Positions 4,559 to 44,128 of a stretch of DNA of 45,301 bases are shown here, piece after piece. Source of the DNA: Patescibacteria group bacterium (GTDB taxonomy: Bacteria; Patescibacteriota; Minisyncoccia; Phycocordibacterales; PALSA-1337). The stretch spans positions 1-45,301 of the forward strand of contig JAGWWT010000009.1 of assembly GCA_018970245.1 (NCBI GenBank). The letters are read 5' to 3'. A program made the translations under genes and the position numbers. Numbering within the stretch: the stretch's first letter is position 1; every line of letters starts with the position of its first letter. Below the pieces are notes generated by a model, which did no database searches, was not told where the DNA came from, and saw only the letters and a program-made list of their open reading frames with translations.

Positions 4559-5746
4559 GTGATTACTTTCTTCAAGAAACCAAATGTAATCATTACATTC
4601 CTGTTCTTGCTGTTCCTGATGTTGGGCTACCCGCTGATTGTCTGGGAGCAAGGGCAGAACTTCCCGCCGAATGGTGGCAGCACTCCTGGTGGGAGCACCA
4701 ATGACATCCAGTACAATAACAATGGTGCTCTCGGGGGAATTACCGGGACGATCAGTGGGTCTGTAATGATAGGGGTGAATGGTTCCCACCCGATATTCAG
4801 TGTGACTGGGACTCCCGGAGAGATAGTCAACTCCACTCCCTATACCGTCCAGTGTGACAGTGCCACGACCACTATGGACCGTGGGACTACCATAGAGTTT
4901 GTCTCCGGGGCATCCAGTGTCGTTCTGCCCGATCCCGCTACAAGTGGATGCGGGAACAACTTCCCCGTTCGGTTAATATCCGAGACTTCTATCACTCTGA
5001 CATCAGCTAAACAGGTGACTGTCAATAATGGATCATCCACGGTCACATTCTGCAATTCTGGCTGCACCAATACATCTCTGGCGATGACTGCCGGAGAGTG
5101 GGTGGCAGTCAATAGCCCGGACAATTTGGTGTGGCAGGCCGATGAGGTTGTATCCGCTTCCTCCAGCGGGGTTCCTAACCCCAGTGCCAATGGTATTGTC
5201 GCCTGCACCGGAACGAACTGCTCGACATCGAGCGCCCGCACGATCACAGGGACAGCGAACCAGATAGCCGTGACAAACGGAGATGGCGTCAGCGGCAACC
5301 CCACTCTATCGTTTCCATCTACAATCGTGGTCCCGAATGGTTCCACGGCCACTACGCAATCCGCGAATGATAATTCAACGAAGGTGGCAACGACGGCATA
5401 CGTGGACGGTAAGGCTCGCATCTGGTCCTGCCGGGCTGGACTTGGTGACGGCCTGAATGCGATTCCTGCCGGAACCTATCCACAGACGACCTGCTATAAC
5501 GATACGGGCGTGACGGTCACGATCACCGGGGTAAAGTGCTACGCAGACGGCGGCACACCGACGATGAATGTGTCGGGGCATACTCTCGGAGCATTGCTGA
5601 CCGGAGCGATAACTTGTACGACAGCCTATGCCGCAGGAACGCAGAGCGCGAACGTGTCGCTCACAAGCGGAGATTATCTGCAATTCAGCTTCGTTGCCGG
5701 TGGCACAGCGAAGCAAACGGATTGGGTGGTTACGGGAACCTACTGA
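4559..5746 (+). CDS. Membrane-anchored tail-fibre-like adhesin
   Basis: I take the GTG at 4559 (GAGGG just before it) as start, giving 395 residues; an in-frame ATG at 4505 would overlap the previous gene. Residues about 11-30 (VIITFLFLLFLMLGYPLIVW) form an uncleaved membrane anchor. The protein then carries the fibre motif NDIQYNNNGALGG, beta-rich Ser/Thr/Gly sequence, the VATTAYVDGKA trimer-type motif, and a Cys-containing C-terminal domain (IWSCRAGLGDG). The site at 4585-4597 lies inside the anchor and encodes VIIT. It is the second of four adjacent surface-type proteins; receptor binding is inferred. Confidence 0.65.
   Translation: MITFFKKPNVIITFLFLLFLMLGYPLIVWEQGQNFPPNGGSTPGGSTNDIQYNNNGALGGITGTISGSVMIGVNGSHPIFSVTGTPGEIVNSTPYTVQCDSATTTMDRGTTIEFVSGASSVVLPDPATSGCGNNFPVRLISETSITLTSAKQVTVNNGSSTVTFCNSGCTNTSLAMTAGEWVAVNSPDNLVWQADEVVSASSSGVPNPSANGIVACTGTNCSTSSARTITGTANQIAVTNGDGVSGNPTLSFPSTIVVPNGSTATTQSANDNSTKVATTAYVDGKARIWSCRAGLGDGLNAIPAGTYPQTTCYNDTGVTVTITGVKCYADGGTPTMNVSGHTLGALLTGAITCTTAYAAGTQSANVSLTSGDYLQFSFVAGGTAKQTDWVVTGTY
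4585..4597. repeat. Dispersed palindrome TGTAATCATTACA
   Basis: Exact copy, central C, inside the adhesin gene where it encodes VIIT within the membrane anchor. It is the last site before a 5.8-kb gap. Confidence 0.9.
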
Positions 5747-15190: not shown

Positions 15191-17470
15191 ATGGTAACGG
15201 CAGCCACACCACCAATCGAGCAGCCCGTCCCGGACGATCCTGAGCAGAACCAACCTGAGCAGGATCAGGAACAAGAAGCCCCTAACTATGGGGAGTGGAA
15301 TGAGGCTCTGCCGGAAGAGTTACAGACCACCCTTGTCAAGCTGGCTGAGAATGTCTGCAATGAGTTCAAGTATCCCCGCAGACTGGAAGTGATGAAGGCT
15401 TGGAAGGCCAGAATGTTCTGGCGGGAGATGCAGCACCTAAAGTGGAACTGGGGTGGAGAGTGCTGGGAGATCATGTTTGGTCCAGCAGGGTACAATAGCC
15501 AGAACAACGAGGGGGATAGGGACAGTGCCCTGCTGTACTCGACCAATATGTATCAGGGATTTGGTGAGTCCTTCATGGCTATTATCACTCAGAGCGTGCC
15601 TAATGTGCGCTTTGAGCCGGAAGACCCAGAAGAACCAGCTGATATGGAGACAGCCAAGGCTGCCGAGCCTCTTCGCAAGCTGATCCAGCATGAGAATGAC
15701 CCCATTAAGCTGATGACCAAGGCTGCCTACTACGCCTGGACTGATGGCCGGATACACGGGTGGACTCGCTGGGAAGTAGACAAGCGCACCAATACTCCCC
15801 GCGAGATGCAGACGATTGAGGGGTCAATGGAGGTGAAGATTCCGGTCATCTATGAAGAGGACTGTGAGTATCCATACCTTCAGTATTCCAAGGAGTACCA
15901 TGTGTCAACCGTCCGGGAAAAGGTGAGAAAACGTGCGTTCCCGGTAGATTACTGGAAGAAGATCAAAGGGGGTAGCAGTGGGAACGGCCAGGATGTGTAT
16001 GAGAGGACTGCCCGCATCTCGGTCAAGCAGGGAATCTCCATGCGGTCTGCTGGCGGGGATGCCTACTCCCATCTGGTGACAACTCAGCGCACCTGGATGC
16101 GCCCATCCATTCTCATGGGGGATACCGTTGAGGAAGATAAGAGAGATCAGCTAGAATCCCTGTTCCCTCATGGTATCTATGTGGAAGTGGATAACGGAGT
16201 CTACACAGGCTCCCGTGATGCCACTATGGATGATGAGTGGGTGGTAGAGAACATCATGGAGGGGGACGGATCATTCAGGAATGCCAAGGGAACTTGCCTC
16301 ATATCCGTCCAGGAGCGTGTCAACGATCTCAATAACGCCACTCAGGATGTATATGAGAAAACCCTCCCCGCTTCCTACTGGGATGACAAGCTGTTCGATA
16401 TAGATGGCATGAAGCGGCAGCGGTCCAGCCCCGGAGCCCGGTATGGGGTGAACATGAGTGAACTGCCTGCTGGGGATACCATTGCTGCACATTTCGCATT
16501 TGAGCCAACAGCTACAGTTAGCGCGGATATGCTCCAGTTCACCAAGGAGCTGATGACAGATGTGCCGGAGTTCCTTACAGGCATATCTTCCATCTTGTTT
16601 GGGGCCGACACGGGAGGGGACAAGAGTGGCAAGGCTCTCTCCATCCAACAGGCTGCTGCCATGGGCCGGGTTGGATTGCCATTCCGCACCCTCAAGAGAT
16701 TCTATGCCCGCATGATGGAACAGGCTGTACGGTGCTCAGCTAGGAACAGGAAGTCTGATTGGAGGATGGGCATCCGATCACAGACCGGAGAGATTGAGAC
16801 TGTGGCCGTCCGGGTTGGTGATCTCAATGGCAAGGTGCGCTGCTTTGCCAATGCGGATGAGAACTATCCCGAGTCCTGGATTTCCAAGCGCAACACATAT
16901 ATGCAGCTCATGCTGGAGGGCAATACCGATCCAACTCTGAAGGCCATTCTTGCCAACCCAGAGAATCAGAACTTGGCAAAGAAGCTGATCGGTCTTGAGG
17001 ACTTGACCCTCCCGGATGAGAATAGCTGGAGGAAGCAGATGGTTGAGATTAACCTTCTGCTTGCCGAGCCTCCCAATGTGGTCCAGCCTCCTCCGGCCCA
17101 AGTGCCAAATCCGTTGCAGCCTGAAACTATTGAGACTATCCAGCCTCCACCCACTACACAGAGCACCATTCCTATTGATCCTGTCTATGACAACAATGCT
17201 GCCGAGTTCCTAACGGTTGTCATCTGGATCAATAGCCAGAAGGGGCAGGAAGCTAAGAAAGCCAATCCGAAGGGATTTGAGAACGTGAGGTTGCATGGGT
17301 TGGAGCATAAGCAGGCGCTACAGGCGCAGACACCGCCTCCGGTAGTGCCTCCGGTACCACCCCACCGGGCAGCTCCACATGCAGCCCCAGCGCCGGGAGG
17401 AGCACCCCCGATGTCACCGCCATCGGCAACTCCTCCCCAGGCAGCGGGGGCTGCACCTGCGGGAGTGTAA
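15191..17470 (+). CDS. Portal protein (podovirus/P22 type)
   Basis: 759 residues from ATG 15191, after GAAGGGG. The portal forms the ring at the capsid vertex through which DNA is packaged and to which the tail attaches. Length, the early helical region (LEVMKAWKARMFWREMQ), the central part with PASYWDDKLFDIDG, and the later SGKALSIQQAAAMGRVGLPFRTLKRFY segment fit P22-like portals. The last 110 residues are Pro/Ala-rich and low complexity. Identification relies on these features and on position between terminase and scaffold. The TAA stop is formed by the palindrome at 17466. An upstream in-frame start (15128) would overlap the previous gene. Confidence 0.8.
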   Translation: MVTAATPPIEQPVPDDPEQNQPEQDQEQEAPNYGEWNEALPEELQTTLVKLAENVCNEFKYPRRLEVMKAWKARMFWREMQHLKWNWGGECWEIMFGPAGYNSQNNEGDRDSALLYSTNMYQGFGESFMAIITQSVPNVRFEPEDPEEPADMETAKAAEPLRKLIQHENDPIKLMTKAAYYAWTDGRIHGWTRWEVDKRTNTPREMQTIEGSMEVKIPVIYEEDCEYPYLQYSKEYHVSTVREKVRKRAFPVDYWKKIKGGSSGNGQDVYERTARISVKQGISMRSAGGDAYSHLVTTQRTWMRPSILMGDTVEEDKRDQLESLFPHGIYVEVDNGVYTGSRDATMDDEWVVENIMEGDGSFRNAKGTCLISVQERVNDLNNATQDVYEKTLPASYWDDKLFDIDGMKRQRSSPGARYGVNMSELPAGDTIAAHFAFEPTATVSADMLQFTKELMTDVPEFLTGISSILFGADTGGDKSGKALSIQQAAAMGRVGLPFRTLKRFYARMMEQAVRCSARNRKSDWRMGIRSQTGEIETVAVRVGDLNGKVRCFANADENYPESWISKRNTYMQLMLEGNTDPTLKAILANPENQNLAKKLIGLEDLTLPDENSWRKQMVEINLLLAEPPNVVQPPPAQVPNPLQPETIETIQPPPTTQSTIPIDPVYDNNAAEFLTVVIWINSQKGQEAKKANPKGFENVRLHGLEHKQALQAQTPPPVVPPVPPHRAAPHAAPAPGGAPPMSPPSATPPQAAGAAPAGV

Positions 17471-39447: not shown

Positions 39448-40028
39448 GAAATGGGGCGCCAACAAGGATTGCTGAGCTTCCTCCATCTTGGCACCCATCT
39501 GGCTTGATTCTTGATCCATACGCTGGAAGCCAGTGCTGGTGGCAGAAGTCAAGGTGGGAGCCAATACTCGTGGATAAGTATGTGCCCATGCCCGGAAGAG
39601 TCCTAGCAGATTGTATCCAGCTACCCTTTGAGGATAGTACTTTTGATTGGGTCTGCGCTGATCCTCCTCATTGGATTCGTAGATCACCATTAAAGAGAAC
39701 CAGTAACTTTGTAAATGCTACGGCATCTGCTTGGGATCTCCATGCTACAGATAGGAGTCACGGCTATTTTGGTGCATACCCTGATAGGTCAAGCCTGAGA
39801 CATGAGTGGTCAGGCGTAGCGAGGGAACTTCATCGAGTAACTAAAACAGGAGCACATCTCATCTGGAAGTCTATAGATGGAGCAAAAACCAGGGCTCAAT
39901 GTTGCAATGCTGATGATCTTCTCTGTTTAGTGGATTGGTGGACTATGATAGACTGCCTGTCCTTCAAGTCTTGTGTATCATGGTCTACGGCATCCACTAT
40001 CTGGAGTCTATGGGTGAGGGATGACTAG
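39444..40028 (+). CDS. Class I DNA methyltransferase-like protein between polymerase halves
   Basis: 194 residues from the ATG at 39444 (ATGA overlap). LILDPYAGSQ is a motif I-like SAM-binding element and CADPPHW a motif IV-like DPPx catalytic element, so base (adenine or cytosine) N-methylation is a possible activity. Codon use is visibly more AT-rich (TCTACGG, CTCATTGG, TATTTTGG) than the flanking genes, consistent with recent gain. It separates the UDG-exonuclease gene from the polymerase domain gene. No restriction nuclease is seen, so self-protection or anti-restriction is conceivable. Confidence 0.6.
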   Translation: MRNGAPTRIAELPPSWHPSGLILDPYAGSQCWWQKSRWEPILVDKYVPMPGRVLADCIQLPFEDSTFDWVCADPPHWIRRSPLKRTSNFVNATASAWDLHATDRSHGYFGAYPDRSSLRHEWSGVARELHRVTKTGAHLIWKSIDGAKTRAQCCNADDLLCLVDWWTMIDCLSFKSCVSWSTASTIWSLWVRDD

Positions 40029-41364
40029 GCTCTATAATGGCGTTCGGTTACTGGGCAATGGCCCCAGCATCCGCAACGTACAGAAGATAGACCTTGGTGC
40101 CATGCCCATGATCCTGTGCATGGCTCGTACAGGCTTACAGATTGATCCAGATCACTTTGCCCGGCTGGAAAAGACTCTGGTGGATGATATGGACAGGATC
40201 ACTGAGGATGTCCATACCATCACGGGCCACTACATCAACCTAGATTCCGGGGATCAAGTATCGGAGCTGTTATTCAAGAAGCTGAAGCTGAAGCAAGCCC
40301 GTTTCAAACTCACCAACAGCGGGGATCGGGAGAGTGTCGAGGATGAAGTGCTGAAAGCAATCCAGCACGATCATCCCGTGGTGCCCAAAATCCTGGACTA
40401 TAAGGAGTGCAGCAAACTGCTGGGAACTTATGTTAGACCCATACCTAAACTTGCCAAACGCGATAGTGATAGCGTGCCCAGATTGTTTCCAAACCTCACA
40501 ACTACTCGTGTGCCTTCCGGTAGACTGGCCTGTAAACAACCAAATCTACTTGCTATGCCAGCACGTACCAACAGGGGCAGGGACATCAGGCGTGGATTTA
40601 TTACCAAGCCTGGCTGGTCCTATGTGTCGGTGGATGAGTCCCAGATCGAGGTTAGGCTAACGGCCCATTGCTCCGGTGATCCCGGATTGATCCGAGTCTA
40701 TGAGAATGAGGAGGATGTGTACAGTGACTTCGCCATCACAGCTTTCCATTTACCCGATCTACGTTATCGGGATGACACCGGATGGCACTATCCTGGAGTT
40801 CATAGGATGGATCACCGTTATCCGGCCAAGACCTGCATACTGGCTGCTATTTATGATGTGTCTGCTAAGGGATTGCTTGAGCAGATGCCCCCAGGACTCG
40901 GATGGACAGAGGACAAGTGCCAAGACTTAATCAACGCCTTCTACATGAAGTATCCCGGCATCTTGGAGGACCGCAAGAAGTATCACCGTACTGCCCGCAG
41001 GCTGGGTTACGTGTGGGATATGTGGGGCCGCATCCTCCAAGTGGCTGCTGTGCGATCCGTCCACAACTGGGTAGTGAGTGCAGCTCTGCGGGAGGTAGGT
41101 AACTTCCCCTACCAGTCTGGGGCACAAGGCACGATCAAACTGACAATGGCAGCCGTCCAGGATGACTTGGAGCAATGCGGGATGCTGGAGGTAATCCATC
41201 CCTTATTGCAGGTCCATGATGAGTTGCTATTTGAGGCTAGGGATGATGTAGTGGACGAGCTGATAGAGTCAGTCAAGTACAGGTTCGAGAGTTGTGCTCC
41301 CCTCCGTGTGCCGATCAAAGCCGGAGGAGCCAAGGCAGCAACGTGGGGAGATTTGGACAAGTAA
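40021..41364 (+). CDS. Family A DNA polymerase, polymerase domain only
   Basis: 447 residues; no 5'-3' or 3'-5' exonuclease domain (the latter is in the 38089 gene). Motif A is VDESQIE (Asp 205), motif B RYPAKTCILAAIYD (Arg 266, Lys 270, Leu 274, Tyr 278), motif C QVHDELLFE (His 399-Glu 401); catalytic residues are present. The residue equivalent to E. coli Phe 762 is Leu, which viral surveys associate with temperate or slow phages. The Tyr after the motif A Asp is Glu, and NFG of motif B is ILA, both unusual. It should act as the phage replicase with the UDG-exonuclease protein. Confidence 0.85.
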   Translation: MTRLYNGVRLLGNGPSIRNVQKIDLGAMPMILCMARTGLQIDPDHFARLEKTLVDDMDRITEDVHTITGHYINLDSGDQVSELLFKKLKLKQARFKLTNSGDRESVEDEVLKAIQHDHPVVPKILDYKECSKLLGTYVRPIPKLAKRDSDSVPRLFPNLTTTRVPSGRLACKQPNLLAMPARTNRGRDIRRGFITKPGWSYVSVDESQIEVRLTAHCSGDPGLIRVYENEEDVYSDFAITAFHLPDLRYRDDTGWHYPGVHRMDHRYPAKTCILAAIYDVSAKGLLEQMPPGLGWTEDKCQDLINAFYMKYPGILEDRKKYHRTARRLGYVWDMWGRILQVAAVRSVHNWVVSAALREVGNFPYQSGAQGTIKLTMAAVQDDLEQCGMLEVIHPLLQVHDELLFEARDDVVDELIESVKYRFESCAPLRVPIKAGGAKAATWGDLDK

Positions 41365-41369
41365 TGAAC

Positions 41370-41382
41370 TGTAATGATTACA
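41370..41382. repeat. Dispersed palindrome TGTAATGATTACA
   Basis: Exact, central G, between the polymerase stop and the promoter at 41402. Confidence 0.92.
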
Positions 41383-41401: not shown

Positions 41402-41430
41402 TTGACAGGGAGTTAAACCTGTGATACAGT
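41402..41430 (+). promoter_or_regulatory. Promoter of the Cys-repeat gene
   Basis: TTGACA (41402-41407), 17 bases, TACAGT (41425-41430). TTGACAGG, AGTTAA and CCTGTG repeat the 32316 promoter at the same spacing, and the palindrome at 41370-41382 lies 19 bases upstream of the -35. Confidence 0.65.
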
Positions 41431-41448
41431 TCTGTCAAGGATTAAGCC

Positions 41449-41484
41449 ATGATACTCAATGATGAACCAGGGGGAGGACAATAA
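41449..41484 (+). CDS. Short leader peptide MILNDEPGGGQ
   Basis: Eleven codons and a TAA that overlaps the next ATG by one base (TAATG). A near-identical frame start recurs at 42196. It may be a coupled leader or the stump of a gene split by insertion of the Cys-repeat ORF. Confidence 0.35.
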   Translation: MILNDEPGGGQ

Positions 41485-42212
41485 TGGAATGGCTAACAGA
41501 TTCAAGACGAAACAAGTGCTCGGTTGAATATTTCGGGTCGCGTGAGAAGGCACAAAAAGCTCTCGACTCACTGGAAGGCTGCAAGGGCTGTGTTAACTGC
41601 TCGGACTGCTCGGGCTGTTCGCGCCTCTCGGGCTGCTCGCGCTGCTCGTACTGTTCGGACTGCTCGCGCTGCTCGTACTGCTCGGGCTGCAAGGGCTGCT
41701 TGTACTGCTCGGGCTGCAAGGGCTGTGTTAACTGCTCGGACTGCTCGGACTGCTCGGACTGCTCTGGATGCTCGGGCTGCTTGGACTGCTCGTACTGCTC
41801 GTACTGCTCAGACTGCTCACGCTGCTCAGGCTGCAAGGGCTGCTCGCGCTGCTCGGACTGCTCGCGCTTCTCGAATAACTCAGAAAAAAAAGAAGCACCG
41901 GCCCAAGTGCCGCGAGTACCAGACCTGCACCGCCTCGTCTACGAGGCCGCAAAGCAGCCTAACGCGCTGGAAATGTACAGTTGGCACACCTGCAAGAACA
42001 CGCACTGCCGCGCCGGATGGGCCGTCACACTAGCTGGTCCCGAGGGCAAAGCTCTTGAGAAACAAGTCGGTACGGAACTTGCGGCGATGATGATCTACGA
42101 CGCGAGCTGCCCCGGATACAAGATCAACCCTGCGCGGTTCTATGACTCTAACGAGGACGCGCTGGCCGATATGAAGAGGCTGGCGGAGGCAAGCCATGAT
42201 ACTCAACGATGA
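41484..42212 (+). CDS. Cysteine-triplet repeat protein
   Basis: 242 residues with GGGAGGA before the ATG. Residues 33-128 are 32 consecutive triplets of the form C-x-x (mostly CS followed by D, G, R or Y), with only one Cys replaced (by Leu); residues 129-137 are FSNNSEKKE. A Trp/His/Cys domain follows (residues about 147-242; YSWHTCKNTHCRAGW, MMIYDASCPG). The regular spacing could bind many metals or iron-sulfur units, form a disulfide ladder or give a solenoid. The C-terminal domain occurs, to my memory, in other phage and soil-bacterial repeat proteins of unknown role. A 135-base unit inside is duplicated. Confidence 0.65.
   Translation: MEWLTDSRRNKCSVEYFGSREKAQKALDSLEGCKGCVNCSDCSGCSRLSGCSRCSYCSDCSRCSYCSGCKGCLYCSGCKGCVNCSDCSDCSDCSGCSGCLDCSYCSYCSDCSRCSGCKGCSRCSDCSRFSNNSEKKEAPAQVPRVPDLHRLVYEAAKQPNALEMYSWHTCKNTHCRAGWAVTLAGPEGKALEKQVGTELAAMMIYDASCPGYKINPARFYDSNEDALADMKRLAEASHDTQR
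41580..41867 (+). repeat. Nine-base-type repeat encoding C-x-x triplets
   Basis: The DNA is a CTGCTCG-rich tract with a three-codon period. CKG-CVN-CSD at triplets 1-3 recurs at triplets 16-18, an offset of 135 bases, so the array has grown by segment duplication. The reverse strand gives false long ORFs. Confidence 0.85.
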
Positions 42213-42231: not shown

Positions 42232-42247
42232 TTGAGAGGAGGTAGTG

Positions 42248-42697
42248 ATGTCCAGCAAACCACTAACAAAGAAGTTGCGCCAGCAGATGGCCCAGTCCGT
42301 TGCAGGATCAGGGCCAAGCCTTATCCCACAAGCACCACCACCCCGGCCCAAGCCCGAGCCAGAAGAGGAAGCACCATCCATTGATCTTCTGATAGCGGAC
42401 ACGGATGACCGGGATACCCTCCGATCCCTAATCAAGAGCCACGTCGAACTGAACAACCAACTCAGTGGGCTGGAGAAGGCCATCAAGCCCATCAAGGACC
42501 GCATTAAGGCCATTGTGGGAGACTACGGGATCGAGCGAGCTATCTGTGATGGCACCAAGATCAGCTATAGCCACTCCCAGCGATCCACGATCAACGGCAC
42601 AAAGCTGCTGGGAGCTGGGATTGATCCAGACATCATCACCCGCTGCACGGATGTCTCGGATGTCTACACTCTCAAGGTCACACCGGAGAAGGTATGA
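42248..42697 (+). CDS. Hypothetical helical protein
   Basis: 149 residues from ATG 42248 with GGAGG upstream (a GTG three bases earlier is less likely). The N-terminal 55 residues are Pro/Glu-rich; residues about 55-105 form a coiled-coil helix (VELNNQLSGLEKAIKPIKDRIK); the tail is beta-rich with TKISYSHSQRSTI, resembling Gp157-like or nuclease-inhibitor proteins in layout only. Its stop overlaps the next ATG. Function unknown. Confidence 0.5.
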   Translation: MSSKPLTKKLRQQMAQSVAGSGPSLIPQAPPPRPKPEPEEEAPSIDLLIADTDDRDTLRSLIKSHVELNNQLSGLEKAIKPIKDRIKAIVGDYGIERAICDGTKISYSHSQRSTINGTKLLGAGIDPDIITRCTDVSDVYTLKVTPEKV

Positions 42698-42874: not shown

Positions 42875-44128
42875 TTAGGAAACGATCTTAGTCAGCTCCT
42901 TCCTGAGTTGTTCGTCCGTGATCTCTCCAGAAAAGCACCGCTGGAAAGCCACAGCAATGGCGATCACAGCCGCGTGTGATCCCGGCAGAGTCAGCTCACT
43001 CACTACCTTCCGCATCTCTGCCGCATTGAGAGCAACGTGTTGGGTGCTGGCCTTCTCCTTGACGGCAGCCTTCTTGACATCTGCCGAGCTGACCTTCTTG
43101 GCCTCCTTGCCAGCTTTGGCAGGCTTCTCTCCGGCAACCTTGGCAGCCTTGGACGCCACATACTTCTCAAACTTCTCCATGGCTGCCTCATACTCCTTCT
43201 TGGCCGCGTCGAAGTCCGCTTCCGCAATAGCCCGGACCTTCTCCGCTTCCTTGAACGCTGTGGCCGCTGCCTTCTTGTCTTTGGCATTGTCAAACTTCTG
43301 CCGGGATGCGGCATAAGCCTCCGCTGCCTGTGTGGTTTTGTTCTTGAGAGTTTCCTGAGCCTGATTGAATGTGGCTTCCGTCTGAGTCACGGCATCCTGG
43401 AAACCCTGTTTCTTGGCGTTCTCTTCCGCTTCCTTCTTCTCCCTGGCGAGCAACTTCTCCTCATCCCGTTCCTCAGTCTCCAGAGCCTTCTGCCGTTCCT
43501 GTTCCGCACGTTCCAGGACTGCCGTGCGCTTCTCAGCGGGCACTTTGGTCAGCTCATAGGCAGCAGCCACACCAATGAGCCCGTTGTGAATCTTCTCCTG
43601 CACCGATTTGGGCAGCTCCAGAAACGAGAGAGTCATGTTGATGAAGCTGTTACTGGCAGGTTGAATCTTGTTTCCCTTCCTGCCTCCCGGACGGCTGAAT
43701 ACCTCCCGGACTTCCATCTTGCTGAGCCCGGCGTCCAGCAGACGCTTAATGGCAATCGCCTGATCCATCGGGGATTGATTCTCCCGCTCCATGTTCTCGG
43801 CCAGTTGCCGCTTGAGCCTGGACTTGGTATCGGCGGATTCCCGAACAATTGCTGGAACCGTGAGGCCGGCAGCTTGAGTTTTGTTGAGAAATTCCACGGC
43901 TGCCAGCCGATAGAATCCCGTGGTCAATCGGTACTTGTGGCCGTTGGCGCCGGGTTGGATCAATTCAACTTCCACGGGCTCCATAACCCCACCAGTGGAT
44001 ACGATGCTGGACGCCAGGGATTGAATCCGAGTGTCCTTTAGGCCGAACCGCGTATTGTCATCTGCCAAAATCTCCTTGGGATCGAGATTCAGCAGCTCTC
44101 CCGAAGCTACTGCACTTGCCTTTGCCAT
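42875..44128 (-). CDS. Orphan ParB/KorB-like DNA-binding protein
   Basis: 417 residues, AGAGGAG before the ATG. The ParB/RepB N-terminal domain has GFYRLAA (71-77, the GxxRxxA CTP-site element) and ENMEREN (111-117, the ENxQR/D element). A helix-turn-helix with LPKSVQEKIHNGLI spans about 126-195. A long coiled coil (about 200-340) and a Lys/Ala-rich tail follow; the last 40 residues (SELTLPGSHAAVIAIAV) are globular. ParB proteins are CTP switches that load at parS; KorB is the regulatory version. No ParA gene is present. Dispersed palindromes flank the gene, making it the best candidate binder. Confidence 0.85.
   Translation of the reverse strand: MAKASAVASGELLNLDPKEILADDNTRFGLKDTRIQSLASSIVSTGGVMEPVEVELIQPGANGHKYRLTTGFYRLAAVEFLNKTQAAGLTVPAIVRESADTKSRLKRQLAENMERENQSPMDQAIAIKRLLDAGLSKMEVREVFSRPGGRKGNKIQPASNSFINMTLSFLELPKSVQEKIHNGLIGVAAAYELTKVPAEKRTAVLERAEQERQKALETEERDEEKLLAREKKEAEENAKKQGFQDAVTQTEATFNQAQETLKNKTTQAAEAYAASRQKFDNAKDKKAAATAFKEAEKVRAIAEADFDAAKKEYEAAMEKFEKYVASKAAKVAGEKPAKAGKEAKKVSSADVKKAAVKEKASTQHVALNAAEMRKVVSELTLPGSHAAVIAIAVAFQRCFSGEITDEQLRKELTKIVS

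Follow-up and report, generated by a model that had tools for sequence, protein, structure and literature searches.

A cysteine-triplet array in a phage accessory protein as a possible beta-solenoid spacer before a conserved C-terminal domain

In the antifreeze proteins TmAFP and DhbAFP the beta-solenoid coil has 12 residues, with C2, S5, C8 and A11 pointing inward (PMC8038014), and proteins of the TmAFP type gain activity only after oxidation (PMC8038014). The gene described here lies in a window of 45,301 nucleotides that is the entire contig C89 of a 1.42-Mb MAG, and encodes a protein (P0001; Table 1) for which a sequence-only reading had reported 32 unbroken triplets at residues 33-128 with Cys in all but one. 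Translation bore this out, with Cys opening 31 of the 32 triplets and LSG being the sole exception. We propose, at about an even chance, that this CXX array is a Cys-cored beta-solenoid that acts as a spacer in a phage accessory protein and presents a conserved C-terminal domain. No publication on the family was found in a literature search, and the solenoid reading of the two PHROGs families to which P0001 belongs, phrog_15341 and phrog_31265, is new here.

Table 1. Positions in the window of the CXX gene, the parts of its product and the bordering elements
Feature	Position	Strand	Basis
CXX-triplet gene, P0001, 242 aa	41484..42212	+	ORF call and relatives
N-terminal cap, residues 1-32, W..D..NKCSVEYFGS.E.A..AL.SL	41484..41579	+	kept in relatives; AF2 pLDDT ~95
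32-triplet array, residues 33-128, 31 with first-position Cys; proposed beta-solenoid	41580..41867	+	translation; no confident AF2 fold
C-terminal helical domain, HTCxxTHCRAGW, residues 141-242	41904..42209	+	phrog_31265, alignment A2, AF2 pLDDT mostly >90
Shine-Dalgarno-like GGGGGAGGAC upstream of ATG	41470..41479	+	read from sequence
DNA polymerase I-like gene (polA), left border of accessory slot	40021..41364	+	
Conserved phage ORF, ~150 aa, right border of slot	42245..42697	+	
Promoter-like TTGACA-N17-TACAGT	41402..41430	+	sequence and family scan
Direct repeat, left copy	41444..41465	+	sequence comparison
Direct repeat, right copy, encodes last ORF residues and stop	42191..42212	+	sequence comparison
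Palindrome TGTAATGATTACA between polA and promoter	41370..41382	.	one of 20 exact copies in contig

The protein would be built of three modules, namely a short N-terminal cap, a thin CXX beta-solenoid and a conserved helical C-terminal domain, of which the conserved stretch covers about residues 141-236 and the last few residues are encoded by the right copy of a direct repeat. The reading frame is real, as the cap and the C-terminal domain flank the array in the same frame and are conserved across many independent contigs. In the array of the window Cys was encoded by 27 TGC and 4 TGT codons, and among 108 distinct full-length relatives, the set used for codon and array-length statistics, Cys positions showed 89 minor-codon synonymous differences compared to 13 losses of Cys, so that selection on the protein keeps Cys. 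Both the conservation of the flanking modules in frame, seen in >100 proteins, and the synonymous variation at Cys codons speak against an artefact in which the repeat would be untranslated, or read in the wrong frame or on the wrong strand; we regard this as next to negligible, even with the antisense strand and the other frames likewise open across the repeat and a homologue in Flavobacterium phage FL-1 annotated in a different frame. In the record of FL-1 (KY421186; locus L080, 3412-4228) the annotation gives the C-domain as an ORF of its own and, in a wrong frame, the CXX array as an APVAPIAP protein, with one frame break separating array and C-domain; a search of BFVD returned the FL-1 homologue only.

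A 135-base duplicated segment had also been described within the array. The spacing of 135 bp was found again and the segment length was not, the exact repeat measuring only 37 bp (41577-41613 and 41712-41748) within a 140-bp stretch at 81% identity. In a self-comparison of the array DNA, shifts of 27 and 54 bp scored equal to or above the shift of 135 bp, and other shifts by multiples of 9 nt fitted about equally well. As the 27- and 54-bp shifts score as well, the 37-bp repeat is best read as ordinary turnover of 9-nt repeat units.

P0001 matched phrog_15341 over residues 4-138 (N-terminal cap and array; 5.5e-21), and phrog_31265 over residues 141-236 (E 3.5e-27), in the C-terminal domain for which a search had been recommended; P0001 had no match in Pfam and NCBIfam and PADLOC returned nothing for it. 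The CXX relatives form a large family of phages and prophages which is already in PHROGs, unnamed and without assigned function. There were 77 relatives of P0001 in IMG/VR, and a search with a C-domain pattern gave 420 relatives, plus 36 in bacterial genome contigs, CXX arrays being present in Bosea, Kaistia, Rhizorhapis and Phyllobacterium isolates; when irregular relatives served as queries, two scans returned almost only those queries themselves. The family is thus large and functionally blank, with at least one deposited record annotated in the wrong frame. Several loci (L041/L042, L050, L052, L062, L063, L067) carry 2-5 CXX genes each, partly in tandem and with several cap and tail types.

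Array length ranged from 3 (L192) to 59 triplets with a median of 28, and was not in multiples of 3 or 4 triplets among the relatives. It differed in 4 of 4 close pairs matching in cap and domain, including two pairs in which cap and domain were identical (50 versus 30 triplets in L019/L025; 37 versus 42 in L004/L009). Arrays turn over by whole triplets.

Across 2,254 triplets from relatives, position 1 was Cys in 99.2%, position 2 was Ser in 71% and Thr in 4%, and position 3 was D in 35%, G in 20%, R in 15%, N in 13% and Y in 7%, with Thr almost absent. Residues common in tight turns (D, G and N) thus dominate position 3, and residue autocorrelation in the relatives' arrays gave no coil-length periodicity at positions 2 and 3. 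To count what takes the place of lost Cys, a first and wider tally was discarded for its wrong-frame reads (frequent F, R and I accompanied by W at position 2), and a filtered tally, made after the contaminated one had been seen, gave the non-Cys register residues as S30 G6 I5 L3 F3 A3 T2 Y2 M1 V1, with no His, Asp, Glu, Asn or Gln in the filtered set. The only charged replacements were two Arg, on L030(-) and L201(-), where the arrays are read on the opposite strand, and these were judged to be wrong-strand artefacts. R, Y and W together made up 4 of 43 one-step changes from Cys, whereas a share above one half would be expected from mutation alone when transitions count double (binomial 2e-10), Arg and Tyr being the commonest expected products of single transitions from TGY. 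In locus L157 (1-585) several triplets near the array end read SYD in place of CYD, Ser standing for Cys.

These replacements fit a position that is buried, and do not fit one that binds metal. This bears on the earlier suggestion of a metal-binding or Fe-S array, or of a metal store, here taken as metallothionein-like, in which the thiolates of the repeat would coordinate Zn, Cu, Cd or Fe-S clusters; a content of 31 Cys among 96 residues, Cys in 99% of the relatives' triplets under purifying selection, and CxxC pairs, which are typical metal ligands, would all suit such a role. The suggestion fared poorly. Lost Cys is replaced by Ser, Gly or hydrophobic residues and not by His, Asp or Glu, array length varies from 3 to 59 triplets, with 3-6 triplets sufficing beside an intact cap and domain in L192, L213 and L031, Cys-poor solenoids lacking Cys arrays take the same place before the same C-terminal domain, and the protein is without the Pfam or NCBIfam match noted above; we therefore consider a metal array unlikely. 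Some metal or redox chemistry within the array is nevertheless possible, and retention of Cys at 99% is stricter than a small or hydrophobic core requires, so that some Cys-specific chemistry may be involved.

Non-Cys positions lay four triplets apart 11 times compared to 5.7 expected (P=0.007, rising to 0.04 when corrected for the testing of lags 1-8), a weak, post hoc statistic from few arrays to which L054 contributes most pairs, and this spacing would fit a 12-residue coil like that of TmAFP. Large and small residues are often neighbours in the irregular L054 array (STN IIH, SEN LTH, GDN LAN, SKE IVS), which anecdotally looks like volume compensation.

Structure prediction, which had been offered as a check, did not yield a solenoid: AF2 on P0001 with 43 aligned sequences gave confident caps and an array with pLDDT ~30 and no fold, and for L054 ORF2, an irregular relative run without an alignment, no fold was obtained either (pLDDT 37). 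The tendency of AF2 to predict solenoids confidently from perfect repeats (PMC11795689) does not underlie the solenoid claim, as AF2 gave the array no fold. When the 100 best Foldseek hits were re-scored with VIA-align 2, Z stayed at or below 3.1, with every hit falling on the C-terminal domain and none meaningful, and a profile of the C-domain against the PDB gave nothing significant; profile A1 matched 1ezg with E=6e-4, a score biased by Cys. A published Cys-rich repeat (PMC7379824) was set aside as eukaryotic and different from the CXX array.

In most relatives the THCRAGW domain comes after a CXX array; in five others (L104, L116, L140, L146, L154) and in bacterial genome contigs (for example L224, L225, L227, L228, L236, L243 and L244) it comes after pentapeptide repeats. 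All five C-domain proteins with pentapeptide repeats that were tested matched PF00805 in Pfam (L116, L140, L154, L225, L227; E down to 1e-38). In L233 the same domain follows an LRR-like repeat, as read from its sequence, which was without a Pfam match. In L052, L053 and L060 the CXX arrays are followed by a second C-terminal domain (phrog_20532/7964), which in L079 (1319-2026; contig C76, also from this MAG) is found in related form after a GNAxV hexapeptide YdcK-type beta-solenoid (PF18836). One conserved phage domain is therefore found on unrelated repeat types, at least two and probably three in number, and the second domain on two, and CXX arrays replace recognised solenoids in two independent settings. 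We read the CXX array as a solenoid mainly because each of two C-terminal domains is common to CXX arrays and recognised solenoids. The solenoid part of the earlier proposal hence gained indirect support, from domain sharing with PF00805 and PF18836 proteins and from the every-third-residue register, and gained none from the AF2 fold of the array. This would be a natural solenoid-swap experiment, separating the purpose of a rod (shape, spacing) from its material.

The exchange with ordered solenoids, the strong purifying selection on Cys, and the strict register with replacements of buried type all weigh against a disordered, flexible Cys-rich linker from cap to C-terminal domain, kept by slippage and composition and not by a fold. 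A linker of this kind would account for the pLDDT of ~30 in the array and for the free change in length by whole triplets with no coil-length quantisation or residue periodicity, and we consider it improbable. The sharing of the C-terminal domain with pentapeptide repeats could also suggest an inhibitor of the MfpA/Qnr pentapeptide type, in which the solenoid surface would be the active part and would mimic DNA, pentapeptide-repeat proteins being known gyrase inhibitors. DNA mimics are strongly acidic, and the CXX array is near neutral in charge (+2 in the window; median -0.11 per triplet in relatives), which makes this very unlikely. P0001 itself has no pentapeptide repeats, in keeping with its lack of a Pfam match.

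In the remaining rival the array would be a disulfide-zipped rod or a thiol switch, folding or locking on Cys oxidation only, as might follow lysis or oxidative stress. Such a rod would account for the strict retention of Cys over Ala or Val, and has a precedent in beetle antifreeze proteins, which depend on disulfides, those of the TmAFP type being active only once oxidised (PMC8038014). Inspection by eye showed no signal peptide at the N-terminus of P0001 and the protein is therefore probably cytoplasmic, which disfavours this rod, as do the tolerance of Ser, Gly and Ile replacements and the clashes that would be expected if all four Cys of a 12-residue coil were paired across the core. We hold it unlikely, and place the possible rivals in the rough order of disulfide-locked rod, then disordered linker, then metal array.

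The window carries a tailed-phage genome by its terminase-, capsid- and DNA polymerase-like ORFs, as read from their translations, with tblastn support for the polymerase assignment and weaker tblastn support for the terminase. In L250 and L255, the two closest phages (PolA 81% identical), a different small ORF follows polA, and the equivalent of the promoter-like sequence directly precedes the conserved downstream gene. The claim that the CXX gene has its own promoter is therefore upheld for the presence of a promoter-like sequence and doubtful for its ownership. Since the slot in these phages holds another small ORF and the promoter abuts the downstream gene, the CXX gene is an accessory (moron-like) cassette in a variable slot, which would either have been inserted between promoter and conserved gene or have arrived with its own copy of the promoter. 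The flanking direct repeats reported from the sequence were confirmed (22 bp, 1 difference between copies, chance 0.00), and may be the scar of cassette insertion. The neighbourhoods of other family members contain various genes of early or replication type, as judged by eye, and neighbour clustering found no constant neighbour gene of the CXX family; the largest neighbour cluster was rejected as an antisense artefact.

The promoter-like sequence belongs to a family, TTGACA-N12-TGTGATAC, with 6 matches at ≤2 mismatches compared to 0.2 expected (32316, 32681 and 41402 on the plus strand and 44179 on the minus strand; those at 15883 and 18697 may be chance). A 13-bp palindrome, TGTAATNATTACA, occurs between positions 1138 and 44225 in 20 exact copies, or 23 with ≤1 mismatch, compared to 0.06 expected (for example at 4585, 10439, 12175, 41370 and 44213), with G or C at the centre in 19 of the 20. 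It is spread across the whole contig with none in the rest of the MAG, its core is also found at the end of polA in L250, L253 and L255, and taken together the copies resemble an array of stoperators or parS-like sites; a ParB-like ORF, by reading, lies at 42875-44128 (-).

The module architecture is well supported, by sequence, conservation, modular swapping, length turnover and the variable slot. For the fold we infer that the Cys side chains would point inward and form the core, with position 2 (mostly Ser) and position 3 (mostly Asp, Gly, Arg, Asn and Tyr) outward, and that about 12 residues, or four triplets, would make a coil, giving about 8 coils in P0001. The rod would then serve as a rigid spacer, evolvable in length and surface, that displays the C-terminal domain. 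We speculate that in takeover or counter-defence this domain is most likely shown to a protein of the host. A bolder claim, which we think has only a slim chance of being right, is that of a new beta-solenoid class with a continuous Cys stack of up to 59 triplets as its core, which would work in the reducing cytoplasm, be evolutionarily interchangeable with other solenoids and have a Cys-dependent chemistry of its own, the thiol-lined rod reversibly binding metal or forming disulfides as a switch.

Compared with described systems, P0001 matches both phrog_15341 and phrog_31265 and differs from them in naming only. It is like metallothionein-like proteins in very high Cys content and CxxC spacing, and unlike them in its replacement pattern, its modular swapping and an array length unfit for metal storage. 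The YdcK-type GNAxV phage proteins (PF18836; phrog_7964) share their C-terminal domain with the CXX proteins of L052, L053 and L060, but their six-residue repeat lacks Cys and their C-terminal domain is not that of P0001. The PF00805 proteins with the THCRAGW domain have the same C-terminal domain and module order, and differ in a unit of 5 residues versus 3, a hydrophobic versus a Cys core and another N-terminal part. The antifreeze protein TmAFP (Tenebrio/Dorcus; 1EZG) is likewise Cys-rich with an inward-type residue at every third position, inwardness in the CXX array being presumed, and the weak lag-4 signal may point to the same 12-residue coil. Thr is rare in the CXX array, which lacks the Thr-x-Thr ice face of TmAFP and is not an antifreeze protein; TmAFP is a secreted protein whose core residues run C, S, C, A in alternation, C2 and C8 forming a disulfide, whereas nearly all inward residues of the CXX array would be Cys. 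Such an all-Cys core, if true, would be a new answer to the stability of a very thin solenoid and could serve protein design.
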